A stretch of 64,000 nucleotides of DNA from Incurvaria masculella (Eukaryota > Arthropoda > Insecta > Lepidoptera > Incurvariidae), in assembly GCA_946894095.1 (NCBI GenBank), contig OX335642.1, positions 14,519,021 to 14,583,020 of the forward strand, in the 5' to 3' direction. Of the stretch, positions 31,385 to 62,223 are shown one piece after another (within the stretch, counting starts at the first letter, position 1; each line of letters opens with the position of its first letter). A program made the position numbers and the translations under genes. The notes below the pieces were generated by a model. It was not told where the DNA came from and ran no database searches. It worked only from the letters and a program-made list of their open reading frames with translations.

Positions 31385-32056
31385 AAACAAATTTAACAAA
31401 AAAAATAACCGACTTCAAAGGAAAAGCACTAAAAAGTAAAAAATAATTTCCATTTTTGTAGTTACGATTTCTGTTATTTATTGAGTCGGCGTCAGCCGGA
31501 CACGCGCTGCGCCGATCAAGAGAAACTAACCTAACCTAACCTAACCTAACCTAACCTTGGCTGACACCGACTCAAAAAATAACAGAAATCGTAACTACAA
31601 AAATGGAAATTATTTTTGTAGTTACGGAAATTCAAAGGGAAAGTGCTTTTCCTTTGAAGTCGGTTATTTTTTTTGTTAAGTTTGTTTTTTTATTTGTTTA
31701 TTTTTAGTGAATCTGAAGTACACTTACTAATTTGTAGACTTCCTTTCCAATAAAAAAAGAATCACCGAAATCGGTTGGGGTTATATTGAGTTATTCGTCC
31801 ATTTGTCGCGCACATCTTAATACAAATTTAAGACTTTTATGATTTTCTCATGGGTATCATTGTCAGAACTTAACCAAATTAAAATGGGACCACTTGGGAA
31901 GCACAAGCTATCATTTAAAAAAATAATCATCAAAATCGGTTCACCCAGGCAAAAGTAATGAGGTAACAAACATAAAAAAAAAAAAAACAAAAAAAAAAAA
32001 AAACATACAGACGACTTGATAACCTCCTCCTTTTTTTGAAGTCGGTTAAAAAGTGG
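31385..32056 (-). mobile_element. Foldback-like element with telomere-motif core
   Basis: On the minus strand it begins TTAACCGACTTCAAAAAAAGGAGGAGG and ends AAGTCGG...TTTTTTGTTAAATTTG. Its distal half is a large inverted repeat. One arm (31403-31500) reads TAACCGACTTCAAAGG...GAGTCGGCGTCAGCC, the other (about 31557-31680) is its complement, and a CTAAC repeat lies between. A second copy is at 40476-41128 in the opposite orientation and a fragment at 52104. No open frame was recognised; the 5' half (ACCTCATTACTTTTGCCTGG in reverse) is shared with many lepidopteran repeats. Confidence 0.75.
31526..31556. repeat. Interstitial (CCTAA)n telomere-type tract
   Basis: Six perfect CTAAC units. (TTAGG)n is the telomere repeat of most insects, including Lepidoptera. 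Here it sits in the loop of the foldback element, not at a chromosome end. Confidence 0.9.
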
Positions 32057-35335: not shown

Positions 35336-36131
35336 AATGGAATGATGATATCAGTGCATTCTGAGAATTCAAAAACAACACATCATCTGCACGCTATCAC
35401 CTTGAACTATTTACGAATAGTCTAGCATTGATATTTATTTAAAAATAAACTTCATGAGCCCACTCAACTTGCATTAATCTCCGAGATTGGTTTTCTGAAA
35501 ACTAAATTTACGACGCGTATGATACAATTTGGTCGCTTTATGGTCATTTTATGGCGGAGTCTGTTTATTGGCTCCGAAGATCGTACGGGTAGAGTCTCGA
35601 ACGTTCTGATTTGAAACTGTGAATGGGAAATTTGTGGTCGGAGAAGTGCAAGATCGAAAAAAAAACATGGGTCATTTCGATTACCGAGATTACAACTTGA
35701 GTTCATTTCCTGTAGTCACTTAACGGAAAAAGATTAGGTTATATACAGGTATCATGCAATACCAGCATATTGCACCGTGGCATGTATAACGGAAATCTCC
35801 GAATAAAGATGTAAGTACTGAAATGTAGGAACGAATCAACCAAAGAAGCGAGATATTGGAAAAAGTAAATGGTGCTGAAAAAAGCAAATCAAAATTAGAC
35901 ATTACCATTTAATACGAAATAGATTATTGACGCCTAGAGGCAACATACTGGCACGTGCCTAACTTGGCTAATGTTCTTCGTTTGTATTTCTTCACCAAAA
36001 GACAGGTTTAGTTTAGTTTCAATTTTCAAGGGCACTGTTGAGAGATCATCATTCCGATCTTCAAGCCAAGAGTTATTTGGCTCGGTGAAATATTGATCTG
36101 TAAGTCCTATTAAGCTTGAACATCATCTATG
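35336..36131. other. Unassigned DNA downstream of the pan exon array
   Basis: On the minus strand this lies just 3' of the exon array and is probably intron if the gene continues. No exon was recognised. Confidence 0.4.
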
Positions 36132-36271
36132 ATGTTCTCCTCGCCGTCGCCCTCGTCCTTGACCACTTTGACCTCGTCCGTGGAGCCCAGGTCGTCGCAC
36201 CTCCCGAGCTAGCGGCCGAGCCCGAGTGCGCGTGAGGCATCGTCACCTACGCCGCCCGCCGCGCTCGCATA
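36132..36271 (-). pseudogene. pan: Broken eighth copy of pan exon 1
   Basis: It keeps the 49-bp spacer and the start codon region and reads into the [12 protein letters not shown] part, but carries a 2-bp insertion within the GG/DD codons (frameshift), and the homology stops after the GDGEE codons at about 36132. The last third of the coding exon and the splice donor are absent, so it cannot act as a first exon. It forms the 3' edge of the array on the minus strand. Confidence 0.8.
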
Positions 36272-36289
36272 CTATCCCAACTCACTCAC

Positions 36290-36457
36290 CTCGCTCTCGG
36301 TCCAGTCGATGAGGCTCGACTTCTCCTCCAGGAGGTTCTCCGAGCTGCGCTTCTCGTCCTCGCCGTCGCCCTCTTCCTTAAACACTTTGACCTCGTCCGT
36401 GGAGCCCAGGTCGTCGCCGCACGAGCTAGCGGCCAGGCCCGAGTGCGCGTGAGGCAT
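36290..36457 (-). CDS. pan: pan (TCF/LEF) exon 1, tandem copy 7
   Basis: An intact 56-codon copy from MPHAHSG to WTESE with its GTGAGT donor. It differs from the other copies by Cys at residue 13 (Gly elsewhere) and Glu at residue 28 (KEEG for KDEG); the latter lies in the acidic beta-catenin-binding stretch and is conservative. It has Leu at residue 8. No splice acceptor lies in front of it, only the 49-bp spacer. Confidence 0.75.
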
Positions 36458-36506
36458 CGTCACCTACGCCGCCCGCCGCGCTCGCATACTATCCCAACTC
36501 ACTCAC

Positions 36507-36674
36507 CTCGCTCTCGGTCCAATCGATGAGGCTCGACTTCTCCTCCAGGAGGTTCTCCGAGCTGCGCTTCTCGTCCTCGCCGTCGCCCTCGTCCTTGAAC
36601 ACTTTGACCTCGTCGGTGGAGCCCAGGTCGTCGCCGCCCGAGCTAGCGGCCGAGCCCGAGTGCGCGTGAGGCAT
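36507..36674 (-). CDS. pan: pan (TCF/LEF) exon 1, tandem copy 6
   Basis: An intact copy with Ser at residue 8, like copy 1 and unlike copies 2-5 and 7. The silent ATCGAT/ATTGAT site near the Ile-Asp codons is shared with copy 5. Donor GTGAGT is intact. The mosaic of variants suggests unequal exchange or conversion among copies. Confidence 0.75.
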
Positions 36675-36723
36675 CGTCACCTACGCCGCCCGCCGCGCTC
36701 GCATACTATCCCAACTCACTCAC

Positions 36724-36891
36724 CTCGCTCTCGGTCCAATCGATGAGGCTCGACTTCTCCTCCAGGAGGTTCTCCGAGCTGCGCTTCTCGTCCTCGCCGT
36801 CGCCCTCGTCCTTAAACACTTTGACCTCGTCCGTGGAGCCCAGGTCGTCGCCGCCCGAGCTAGCGGCCAGGCCCGAGTGCGCGTGAGGCAT
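36724..36891 (-). CDS. pan: pan (TCF/LEF) exon 1, tandem copy 5
   Basis: An intact 56-codon copy with Leu at residue 8, start codon in ACGATGCC context and donor GTGAGT. It shares the silent change near the Ile-Asp codons with copy 6. Confidence 0.75.
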
Positions 36892-36940
36892 CGTCACCTA
36901 CGCCGCCCGCCGCGCTCGCATACTATCCCAACTCACTCAC

Positions 36941-37108
36941 CTCGCTCTCGGTCCAGTCGATGAGGCTCGACTTCTCCTCCAGGAGGTTCTCCGAACTGCG
37001 CTTCTCGTCCTCGCCGTCGCCCTCGTCCTTAAACACTTTGACCTCGTCCGTGGAGCCCAGGTCGTCGCCGCCCGAGCTAGCGGCCAGGCCCGAGTGCGCG
37101 TGAGGCAT
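36941..37108 (-). CDS. pan: pan (TCF/LEF) exon 1, tandem copy 4
   Basis: An intact copy. The spacer upstream of it carries TGG where the other spacers have the TAG just before the start codon, so the upstream frame is open back to the preceding donor (about 13 extra codons). Other features are as in copies 2, 3 and 5. Confidence 0.75.
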
Positions 37109-37157
37109 CGTCACCCACGCCGCCCGCCGCGCTCGCATACTATCCCAACTCACTCAC

Positions 37158-37325
37158 CTCGCTCTCGGTCCAGTCGATGAGGCTCGACTTCTCCTCCAGG
37201 AGGTTCTCCGAGCTGCGCTTCTCGTCCTCGCCGTCGCCCTCGTCCTTAAACACTTTGACCTCGTCCGTGGAGCCCAGGTCGTCGCCGCCCGAGCTAGCGG
37301 CCAGGCCCGAGTGCGCGTGAGGCAT
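37158..37325 (-). CDS. pan: pan (TCF/LEF) exon 1, tandem copy 3
   Basis: An intact 56-codon copy with Leu at residue 8; start and donor are preserved. By eye it is identical in protein sequence to copies 2, 4 and 5. Confidence 0.75.
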
Positions 37326-37374
37326 CGTCACCTACGCCGCCCGCCGCGCTCGCATACTATCCCAACTCACTCAC

Positions 37375-37542
37375 CTCGCTCTCGGTCCAGTCGATGAGGC
37401 TCGACTTCTCCTCCAGGAGGTTCTCCGAGCTGCGCTTCTCGTCCTCGCCGTCGCCCTCGTCCTTAAACACTTTGACCTCGTCCGTGGAGCCCAGGTCGTC
37501 GCCGCCCGAGCTAGCGGCCAGGCCCGAGTGCGCGTGAGGCAT
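37375..37542 (-). CDS. pan: pan (TCF/LEF) exon 1, tandem copy 2
   Basis: An intact 56-codon copy directly 3' of copy 1 (minus strand), separated by the 49-bp spacer. It has Leu at residue 8; start and GTGAGT donor are preserved. There is no acceptor-like tract in the spacer, so it could enter an mRNA only through its own start site or by retention of the upstream unit. Confidence 0.75.
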
Positions 37543-37591
37543 CGTCACCTACGCCGCCCGCCGCGCTCGCATACTATCCCAACTCACTCAC

Positions 37592-37759
37592 CTCGCTCTC
37601 GGTCCAGTCGATGAGGCTCGACTTCTCCTCCAGGAGGTTCTCCGAGCTGCGCTTCTCGTCCTCGCCGTCGCCCTCGTCCTTGAACACTTTGACCTCGTCC
37701 GTGGAGCCCAGGTCGTCGCCGCCCGAGCTAGCGGCCGAGCCCGAGTGCGCGTGAGGCAT
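37592..37759 (-). CDS. pan: pangolin (TCF/LEF) first coding exon, copy 1
   Basis: Pangolin is the HMG-box transcription factor that binds beta-catenin (Armadillo) in the nucleus and executes canonical Wnt signalling. The exon encodes MPHAHSG, then [18 protein letters not shown] at residues 13-30, an acidic E/D-rich run, [14 protein letters not shown] and ends TESE at codon 56. This matches the N-terminal beta-catenin-binding domain of insect Pan and vertebrate TCF/LEF (DELG..DE...FKDEGE). The start ATG has A at -3. The exon ends GAG|GTGAGT in phase 0, a strong donor. The HMG box and later exons are not in the recognised sequence and would lie at lower coordinates or outside the window. This copy alone adjoins a unique leader and a splice acceptor, so it is the likely functional one. 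Confidence 0.88.
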
Positions 37760-38004
37760 CGTCACCTACGCCGCCCGCCGCGCTCGCATACTATCCCAAC
37801 TCCCGACACATCACTGCACTAAGTGTTGTCCAACATCGTCACTGCTCGACACACCGCGACATTCTACACTTCTCTCTAGTTCCGTTCGAACGCTTCTGTT
37901 AAATGCTTAGTTAGATCACAGATTACTTTTGTCAGGTTGAACTTAAATTGCTACGGTGGCTCCTCGTTGGATCCGATGTGGAGAGTTTGTTTGAGGATCT
38001 GTAC
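37760..38004 (-). other. pan: 5' leader of pan exon, unique part
   Basis: The minus-strand sequence between a splice acceptor (38005-38006) and the start codon of copy 1 would be untranslated leader. Its last 46 bases (GAGTTGGGATAG...GTGACG) are what is repeated in each spacer; the rest is present once. Several in-frame stops precede the ATG. Confidence 0.6.
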
Positions 38005-38040: not shown

Positions 38041-38212
38041 TTATCTTTAAGCATATTGAAATATAAATGATTAAAAAATACATGAACAGTCTTAAGCAAG
38101 CATATTGTTAAGTTTGTTGGAAAATTACCGAATATTAAGAAAAGAACTTTCTGTCTGGGCCTATGATGAATTCATACGAAATTAATGTGAGATTTAATGA
38201 AATTTAATTGCA

Positions 38213-38322
38213 TTTTTTTATGTGACTGCATATGGATGGCTAATACCACAAGTTCTGTCATGGTATTAGCCCAACACACCACATGGGAACTAGGTGCCAT
38301 GCCTGGACCTTCCTTCTTCTTC
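38213..38322 (-). mobile_element. SINE 3' end, 5'-truncated
   Basis: T-run, GACTGCATATGGATGGCTAA, TGTCATGGTATTAGCCCAAC and TGGGAACTAGGTGCCATGCC match the young SINE copies. The match stops at GGACCTTCCTTC, where a TTCTTCTTCTTC run begins. It lies about 200 bp upstream of the pan acceptor, within the predicted leader intron. Confidence 0.8.
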
Positions 38323-40475: not shown

Positions 40476-41128
40476 TAACCGACTTCAAAAAAAGGAGGAG
40501 GTTATCAATTCGTCTGTATGTTTTTTTTTTGTTTTTTTTTTATGTTTGTTACCTCATAACTTTTGCCTGGGTGAACCGATTTTGATGATTATTTTTTTAA
40601 ATGATAGCTAGTGCTTCCCAAGTGGTCCCATTTTAATTTGGTTAAGTTCTGACAATGATATCCATGAGAAAATCATAAAAGTCTTAAATTTGTATTAAGA
40701 TGTGCGCGACAAATGGACGAATAACTCAATATAACGCCAACCGATTTCGGTGATTCTTTTTTTATTGAAAAGGACGTGTACAAATTAGTTAGTGTACTTC
40801 AGATTCACTAAAAATAAACAAATAAAAAAAATTATCAAAAAAAATAACCGACTTCAAAGAAAAAGCACTAAAAAGTAAAAAATAATTTCCATTTTTGTAG
40901 TTACGATTTCTGTTATTTTTTGAGTCGGTGTCAGCCAAGGTTAGGTTAGGTTAGGTTAGGATAGGTTAGGTTAGGTTAGGTTAGGTTCTCTTGATTGGCG
41001 CAGCGCGTGCCCGGCTGACGCCGACTCAAAAAATAACAGAAATCGTAACTACAAAAATGGAAATTATTTTTTTACTTTTTAGTGCTTTTTTTTGAAGTCG
41101 GCTATTTTTTTTTGTTAAATTTTTTTTT
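40476..41128 (+). mobile_element. Foldback-like element with telomere-motif core, second copy
   Basis: It starts TTAACCGACTTCAAAAAAAGGAGGAGG, passes through ATGTTTGTTACCTCATAAC and TGAACCGATTTTGATGATT, and ends in an inverted repeat. One arm is about 40840-40936 (AACCGACTTCAAAG...GAGTCGGTGTCAGCC), the other about 41012-41110, with a GGTTA tract between. It is the same structure as 31385-32056, inverted in the window. Confidence 0.75.
40938..40987. repeat. Interstitial (TTAGG)n telomere-type tract
   Basis: About ten GGTTA units with one GGATA variant. It lies in the loop of the foldback element and is longer than its counterpart at 31526-31556. Confidence 0.9.
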
Positions 41129-50906: not shown

Positions 50907-51110
50907 AAAATACCGTTATCTCATTAATTTTAGGTTATCCAACGGCATCTATGAGACTGGCGTCGTTGCCGGGATAGCTCAGAGGTAGAGCAATGGACAT
51001 GTAATCCAAAGGTCGCATGTTAGAATTCTGCTTTCGACGAATTTCCAGGCCAAAAAGGTTTTCTCATTAAAAAAATTAGATGCATAACCTCAAAACATAT
51101 GTCCGTGCAT
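50907..51110 (+). mobile_element. Element with terminal motifs and tRNA-Thr-like core
   Basis: TTTAATGGATACGAAAATACCGTTATCTCATTAATTTTAGGTTATCCAACGGCATCT is the family left end. A tRNA-like segment follows (50968-51040), then CTGCTTTCGACGAATTTCC and CCAAAAAGGTTTTCTCATT. The right terminus is short or missing. Confidence 0.55.
50968..51040 (+). pseudogene. tRNA-Thr(TGT)-like sequence
   Basis: ATAGCTCAGAGGTAGAGC forms a normal D arm, and TGGACATGTAATCCA could form an anticodon arm with TGT. The T arm (GTTAGAATTC) is mutated from GTTCGAATC and the acceptor GCCGGGA has no partner at the 3' end, so it is not a working tRNA gene. It is part of a mobile element. Confidence 0.6.
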
Positions 51111-61234: not shown

Positions 61235-62173
61235 GGCTGAGATAAATAGTCGTAACAGAAACTAAGAGTAACGAAAAATAGTACTTTGTGACGTCACTTT
61301 GCATCACTTTGAGATCTCGTTCATACAAAACGTGTCAAAGTGACGTCACAAGTAGTACACTTTCCGTTAGTCTTAGTTTCTGATGCGACTATTTATCTCT
61401 GCCTCAGTTTCTGATGCGACTATTTATCTCAGCCTTAGTTTCTGATGCGACTATTTATCTCAGCCTTCTGATGCGACTATTTATCTCAGCCTTAGTTTCT
61501 GATGCGACTATTTATCTCAGCCTTAGTTTCTGATGCGACTATTTATCGCAGCCTTAGTTTCTGATGCGACTATTTATCTCAGCCTTAGTTTCTGATGCGA
61601 CTATTTATCTCAGCCTTAGTTTCTGATGCGACTATTTATCTCAGCCTTAGTTTCTGATGCGACTATTTATCTCAGCCTTAGTTTCTCATGCGACTATTTA
61701 TCTCAGCCTTAGTTTCTGATGCGACTATTTATCTCAGCCTTAGTTTCTGATGCGACTATTTATCTCAGCCTTAGTTTCTGATGCGACTATTTATCTCAGC
61801 CTTAGTTTCTGAAGCGACTATTTATCTCAGCCTTAGTTTCTGATGCGACTATTTATCTCAGCCTTAGTTTCTGATGCGACTATTTATCTCAGCCTTAGTT
61901 TCTGATGCGACTATTTATCTCAGCCTTAGTTTCTGATGCGACTATTAATCTCAGCCTTAGTTTCTGATGCGACTATTTATCTCAGCCTTAGTTTCTGATG
62001 CGACTATTTATCTCAGCCTTAGTTTCTGATGCGACTATTTATCTCAGCCTTAGTTTCTGATGCGACTATTTATCTCAGCCTTAGTTTCTGATGCGACTAT
62101 TTATCTCAGCCTTAGTTTCTGATGCGACTATTTATCTCAGCCTTAGTTTCTGATGCGACTATTTATCTCAACC
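61235..62173. mobile_element. Harbinger-like MITE, internally expanded
   Basis: Left terminus GGCTGAGATAAATAGTCG and right terminus CGACTATTTATCTCAACC are inverted repeats flanked by TAA at 61232-61234 and 62174-62176. The other Helitron copy shows the empty site (AATACCAAGCC against AATACTAA...TAAGCC). Inner pairing (TGACGTCACTTTG against CAAAGTGACGTCA) is preserved at 61290-61350. All extra length lies in the right terminal repeat, which is present 26 times. Confidence 0.85.
61372..62172 (+). repeat. 31-bp minisatellite, 26 copies
   Basis: The unit contains CTTAGTTTCTGATGCGACTA and TTTATCTCAGC and recurs every 31 bp with very few changes (TCATGCG, GAAGCG, ATTAATC, ATCGCAG variants; one unit lacks AGTTT). 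It equals the right terminal inverted repeat of the MITE. There are no unique spacers. Confidence 0.95.
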
Positions 62174-62223
62174 TAAGCCGTATTTCGGTACAATTAGTAA
62201 CAGTAAACGATGAGCGATTTCTT

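Follow-up and report, generated by a model that had tools for sequence, protein, structure and literature searches.

A tandem array of seven intact copies and one broken copy of the beta-catenin-binding exon of pangolin in Incurvaria masculella

In Incurvaria masculella, the exon that holds the start of pangolin and its beta-catenin-binding domain lies in a tandem array that is both real and unusual. We found that the expansion is most likely recent and is most likely tolerated because splicing takes the first donor. Our preferred explanation, which we think is probably correct, is that copy 1 functions, that copies 2-8 are recent intronic passengers that are spliced out, and that the protein is ordinary. 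An earlier note on this DNA knew of no described pan locus with such an array, and our literature search agrees with this: in the titles and abstract openings that were listed from the open-licence literature, we found no description of pangolin/TCF exon arrays or of tandem first-exon/donor arrays.

The window is the whole 64,000-nucleotide stretch of DNA that was analysed, and positions are those of the window unless a contig is named. TRF reports a direct repeat of 217 bp at 36138-37802 (7.7 copies, 98% matches, 0% indels, score 3186). On the minus strand, the array consists of seven intact copies followed by a broken eighth copy at the 3' end. A full unit comprises 43 bp of leader, a 168-bp exon (56 amino acids), and the donor GTGAGT, and successive exons are 49 bp apart. 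The repeat runs from a point inside the leader to intron base +6. The array and its flanks are as follows.

37803..38004, minus strand: leader upstream of unit 1, beginning at a predicted acceptor (tract ATTTAATTTCTCTGTTGCAG; 38004 is the first base of the exon)
37586..37802, minus strand: unit 1; 43 bp leader, coding sequence 37592-37759 (ends ...WTESE), donor GTGAGT from 37591; S-type (TCG, TTC)
37369..37585, minus strand: unit 2; coding sequence 37375-37542, donor 37374; L-type; equal to the majority sequence
37152..37368, minus strand: unit 3; coding sequence 37158-37325, donor 37157; L-type; identical to unit 2
36935..37151, minus strand: unit 4; coding sequence 36941-37108, donor 36940; L-type; TAG in the leader changed to TGG
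36718..36934, minus strand: unit 5; coding sequence 36724-36891, donor 36723; L-type; GAT at codon 51
36501..36717, minus strand: unit 6; coding sequence 36507-36674, donor 36506; a mosaic, S-type with GAT at codon 51
36284..36500, minus strand: unit 7; coding sequence 36290-36457, donor 36289; L-type; G13C and D28E
36138..36283, minus strand: unit 8, the broken copy; has a 2-nt insertion, is S-type at codon 8, loses similarity inside the exon, and lacks GTGAGT
35650..36137, minus strand: single-copy downstream flank; the native start of intron 1 beside an intact exon is absent here

All seven full units retain the ATG, the open 168-nt frame, and the donor GAG/GTGAGT, so that AGGT, a potential dual-specific splice site, is present in each of them. 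The 18-nt sequence at the start of the unit has eight matches in the window, all of them exact; even with a tolerance of up to 3 mismatches, chance would give 0.03. As compared to unit 1, the broken eighth copy has a 2-nt insertion, which shifts the frame, and two substitutions, and the similarity ends after 146 bp. Directly beside this end is a short palindrome (GAACATCAT-AG-ATGATGTTC on the minus strand, window 36118-36137), which may mark a deletion point. With head-to-tail copies of small divergence inside one gene, this is an intragenic minisatellite-like tandem array.

The repeated exon is pangolin's own exon and not a stray copy. The 56-amino-acid frame matches the Pfam family CTNNB1_binding (PF08347; 31.6 bits, with a cut-off of 22.4), as well as PDB chains named TCF7L2, TCF3-CBD, and LEF1. 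Its best protein relatives are 98% identical, and those with names are lepidopteran, including Choristoneura, Papilio (named pangolin), and Pieris. The majority protein of the units starts with MPHAHSG followed by S or L; unit 7 deviates at two further residues. Exon 2 (C2:14501531-14501468, minus strand; DKSGEPYAGKLSVKSDLSPVF) follows in phase 0 after ...WTESE, and the resulting junction, ESE-EKSGEPYSGKLSVKSDLSPVF, is the same in proteins from Ostrinia, Aphomia, and Colias. The position of exon 2 relative to donor 1 implies a first intron of about 55 kb. Farther downstream in the 223 kb examined, again on the minus strand, are the two halves of the HMG box (C2:14381856-14381981 and 14379961-14380110) and the two pieces of a split C-clamp (C2:14377041-14377100 and 14371411-14371446), which we located with query pieces of these domains. 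We infer that the HMG-box and C-clamp exons are spliced to the exon of the array. The Pfam match, the 98% identity, and these downstream exons on the same strand all support the earlier note's reading of the repeat as the beta-catenin-binding exon of pangolin (TCF/LEF). The second half of the HMG box has two apparent alternative exons, at C2:14379961-14380110 (96% identity to the query) and C2:14378699-14378842 (65%), which suggests that there may be isoforms that differ in the DNA-binding half.

We found no other copies of the exon in the 552-Mb genome (31 contigs): a DNA search and a family search, which score the best candidates only (1 for DNA, 7 for the family), each gave 8 matches, all in the array. 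We considered whether the array is a fragment carried by a transposon and rejected this, as the sequence from 35650 to 36140, up to the 3' edge of the array, has a single match in its own genome, and the dispersed repeat on the upstream side is away from the array's edge. (This dispersed repeat, of roughly 100 bp, is at about 38201-38300, with a match span of 38190-38300; it has at least 40 other matches in the genome, the best 40 of 740 candidates.)

For comparison with other species, we collected 173 related proteins from three protein searches (the best 120 of 190, 235, and 564 hits) of a database that was clustered at 90%, and 27 of these carry the exact core motif of the lepidopteran type. 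Neither a second copy nor the VSELG continuation that marks a unit junction was seen in any of the 27 lepidopteran-type relatives (17 of them informative) among the best 120 hits per search. The 17 continue with V, as the donor does when it is read as codons, so they test the junction. The other 10 resemble spliced or predicted models and are a weaker test. The clustering of the database at 90% could hide species that have an array. Two proteins that we inspected as candidates were rejected: P0144 was suspected of having two domains because of its high score, and its sequence has one; P0065 was the sole protein to be flagged in a loose motif count, and there a short motif recurs at the boundary of exons 1 and 2 without a second domain.

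Across the seven full units, 9 of the 217 positions are variable, and the mean pairwise difference is 3.3 (1.5%); diverged coding sequence of the kind that separates 5' cassettes is not seen. At codons 8 and 26, units 1 and 6 have TCG (serine) and TTC, respectively, and units 2, 3, 4, 5, and 7 have CTG (leucine) and TTT. At codon 51, GAT is found in just two of the full units, 5 and 6. Codons 8 and 51 occur together in all four possible combinations, which implies either that sequence was exchanged between units or that one site mutated twice. Given these four combinations and the small mean difference, exchange between units seems likely, and both observations fit the earlier note's view that the event was recent or that the units had been homogenised by exchange. 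At a mutation rate of 2.9e-9 per site, a divergence of 1.5% corresponds to about 2.6 million generations, which would date the last homogenisation and not the origin.

The broken unit 8 has retained the serine at codon 8 as well, and all 27 lepidopteran-type relatives have it. Codon 7 encodes glycine in all eight copies and serine in 27/27 of those relatives, so the change to glycine is either older than the expansion or was spread by it. Four of the seven coding events among the units are synonymous. Under neutrality, the probability of four or more is 0.04-0.09, depending on the mutation model, or 0.07-0.15 if the change at codon 8 counts as two. This weak excess leans towards constraint on the units. 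All seven frames are open, but even without selection the chance that no new stop codon would arise is 0.75-0.83.

We scored splice sites with an approximate matrix, and therefore only the ranks matter. The predicted acceptor of the leader, the best one nearby, scores 10.1, which is rank 35 among the 3256 minus-strand AGs in the window. The AGs inside the units score -0.1 at most, so after unit 1 none of the units resembles an exon with its own acceptor. The seven donors all score 11.3; of the 3727 minus-strand GTs in the window, eight reach this score or more, and the seven donors are among them. Dscam1-type alternative exons each have their own acceptor and donor; according to this approximate matrix, the copies of the pangolin exon do not all have both a 3' and a 5' splice site.

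The layout of the array had been described correctly in the earlier note. TRF and the alignment of the units agree with its seven intact copies and one broken copy at a head-to-tail period of 217 bp, the seven full units have the start codon and the strong donor that it ascribed to each copy, and its statement that only the 5'-most copy has a leader and an acceptor agrees with the approximate splice scoring, in which the acceptor is a predicted one.

Several other reading frames surround the exon. Short upstream ORFs in the leader start at 37862, 37836, and 37811, and the last of these enters unit 1 by a few codons. A seven-codon upstream ORF (MRARRAA) is at 37766-37789 and at the equivalent place in the other units, and it ends six bases before the pangolin ATG. 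In unit 4, the stop codon of this upstream ORF is TGG instead of TAG, so the frame continues into the exon, and the open frame is 76 amino acids instead of 63. If the donor is read through, each of the seven units gives an ORF of 61 amino acids, from ATG to VSELG. We found no special RNA structure in the unit (z 0.03).

We propose that the array began with a tandem duplication of the first coding exon, from its 5' leader as far as intron base +6, and that it grew to eight copies, probably by unequal exchange; units would later have undergone conversion or crossover with one another. Transcription would start upstream, and splicing would link donor 1, in phase, with exon 2 (about 55 kb farther downstream) and would take out units 2-8 as the beginning of intron 1. 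This is what we would expect given that there is no plausible 3' splice site before units 2-8, and with those units removed along with intron 1, the protein would be ordinary Pangolin. The deletion that broke copy 8 probably also removed the native start of the intron, after the last copy. The ends of tandem arrays tend to decay, so an intact copy 1 and a broken far end would fit selection on copy 1. Copy 1 also has the lepidopteran serine at codon 8 (as do units 6 and 8). On the other hand, the seven donors are identical and none has decayed, and the unit ends at the donor and not at random, which could be a hint of selection. The synonymous excess also counts against passengers, as it is unexpected if units 2-7 are unconstrained. 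A regulatory role for the array is possible.

One such role would arise if any of the seven equal donors can be joined in phase to exon 2. Use of donor k would place k-1 mini-ORFs of 61 codons before the Pangolin ORF, which would tune the output: Pangolin would fall, and a free beta-catenin-binding peptide could arise and compete with it. The seven identical strong donors, the 61-amino-acid ORF in 7/7 units, the phase-0 join to exon 2, and the weak synonymous excess are all consistent with this idea. However, the exon from the predicted acceptor would be 413 nt with donor 1 and 630-1715 nt with later donors, which exon definition would disfavour, and such an array is kept in 0 of the 27 other lepidopteran-type relatives (17 informative; best 120 hits per search). 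We consider this explanation to be unlikely, and we see a slim chance for a fully working ladder of donors in which copy number tunes the output of Pangolin and the locus also yields a free peptide that binds beta-catenin.

Alternatively, the array could be an artefact of assembly, with a real copy number of one or of some different value, for instance if S-type and L-type alleles had been chained together. A single assembly was examined, and the two sequence types do recur along the array. But the array is a 1.7-kb part of a 32.9-Mb contig; the sequence downstream of it is single copy, and on the upstream side only 38190-38300 matches elsewhere (among the best 40 of 740 candidates). Furthermore, units 4, 6, 7, and 8 have private variants, which is unlike a simple stutter. 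An artefact is thus improbable.

The array could also have been selected as a set of promoter-proximal U1 sites that boost transcription through the 55-kb first intron, or protect it, in the manner of telescripting. U1 telescripting is described in Drosophila (PMC5499120 and PMC4889658), and seven strong 5' splice sites directly ahead of a very long intron would suit it. We nevertheless regard this as very unlikely, as no array was seen in the other Lepidoptera examined (the proteins of 27 relatives, 17 of them informative).

Splicing from unit to unit would remove a 43-nt GT...TAG and fuse beta-catenin-binding domains in frame into a multi-domain Pangolin. GT...AG is kept at 6 of the 7 links, and the 174 nt that are left after removal are in frame. 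However, an intron of 43 nt would be very short, and there is no pyrimidine tract: the last 20 nt before the AG are 35% pyrimidine and 5% T, versus 70% pyrimidine at exon 2. No two-domain protein was seen among the 173 proteins either (best 120 per search), so we would be quite surprised if this occurred. Finally, each unit has an ATG and a donor and could be an alternative first exon with its own promoter, but the 49 bp between exons make a promoter per unit unlikely and the products would be nearly identical, so this is hardly credible.

The remainder of the locus serves as a control for the origin of the array. Using TRF with thresholds of at least 5 copies and a period of at least 60, we identified three further arrays in the 223-kb locus.

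Same 223 kb: 125-bp unit, 5.1 copies
Same 223 kb: 126-bp unit, 5.0 copies
Same 223 kb: 411-bp unit, 8.3 plus 15.3 copies

Judging by these arrays, tandem growth is a common event in this locus, and a neutral origin thus becomes more acceptable. What is exceptional is not tandem growth itself; it is that the array struck this exon and ends at its donor.

The 411-bp unit forms two divergent arrays between pan exons, within C2:14416579-14426291 (L046:6659-9612 and L047:326-6156). These arrays contain predicted tRNA-Thr(TGT) genes, 8 on the minus strand and 15 on the plus strand, and their units are 99-100% alike. The window itself contains a minisatellite at 61372-62174 (31-bp unit, 26 copies, 97% match) and another predicted tRNA at 50968-51039 (plus strand, 39.9 bits). 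It also has short runs of the TTAGG type, which is the insect telomere repeat, at 31526-31557 (CTAAC, 6.4 copies) and 40938-40987 (AGGTT, 10 copies).

An array that stops at a donor, in the beta-catenin-binding exon of a core Wnt factor, is a natural test of how well splicing tolerates repeated exons. Either the spliceosome reliably picks donor 1 although six identical ones follow, or a developmental regulator changes its output with the number of copies. Should individuals differ in copy number, the array would offer a ready-made natural experiment on Wnt output.

How does the array compare to known systems? Like the 5' cassettes of chelicerate sDscam and of vertebrate clustered protocadherins, it is a tandem 5' array that feeds one constant 3' part, but those cassettes have promoters and give a diversity of isoforms (PMC4835542), whereas the pangolin units match each other at 98% and their exons are 49 bp apart. 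Arrays of the Drosophila Dscam1 type are likewise tandem copies of an exon within one gene (PMC1397879). In contrast to the pangolin units, which after the first have no plausible acceptor, Dscam1-type exons are mutually exclusive alternatives (PMC1397879).

Polyubiquitin and VCX3A (which has 8 repeats) also consist of tandem units that each contain AG/GT (PMC10809524). In those genes as in this one, AG/GT in each unit means that extra copies can be concealed by splicing. The introns of those systems originate within repeated genes (PMC10809524), while here the donor was pre-existing and the extra copies most likely lie in a long intron that already existed. Similarly, intron gain by tandem genomic duplication involves tandem duplication within a gene that is tied to AGGT splice boundaries, but in that case a new intron is gained (PMC4974935), and the seven or eight copies here are located where an exon/intron boundary already existed. 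Lastly, panish in Chironomus and the localized pangolin transcripts of Anopheles are also examples of insect pangolin evolving by duplication or by alternative transcripts (PMC6783274). However, panish is a separate gene without the beta-catenin domain (PMC6783274), while in I. masculella only the exon for that domain was copied, and it was copied in place.
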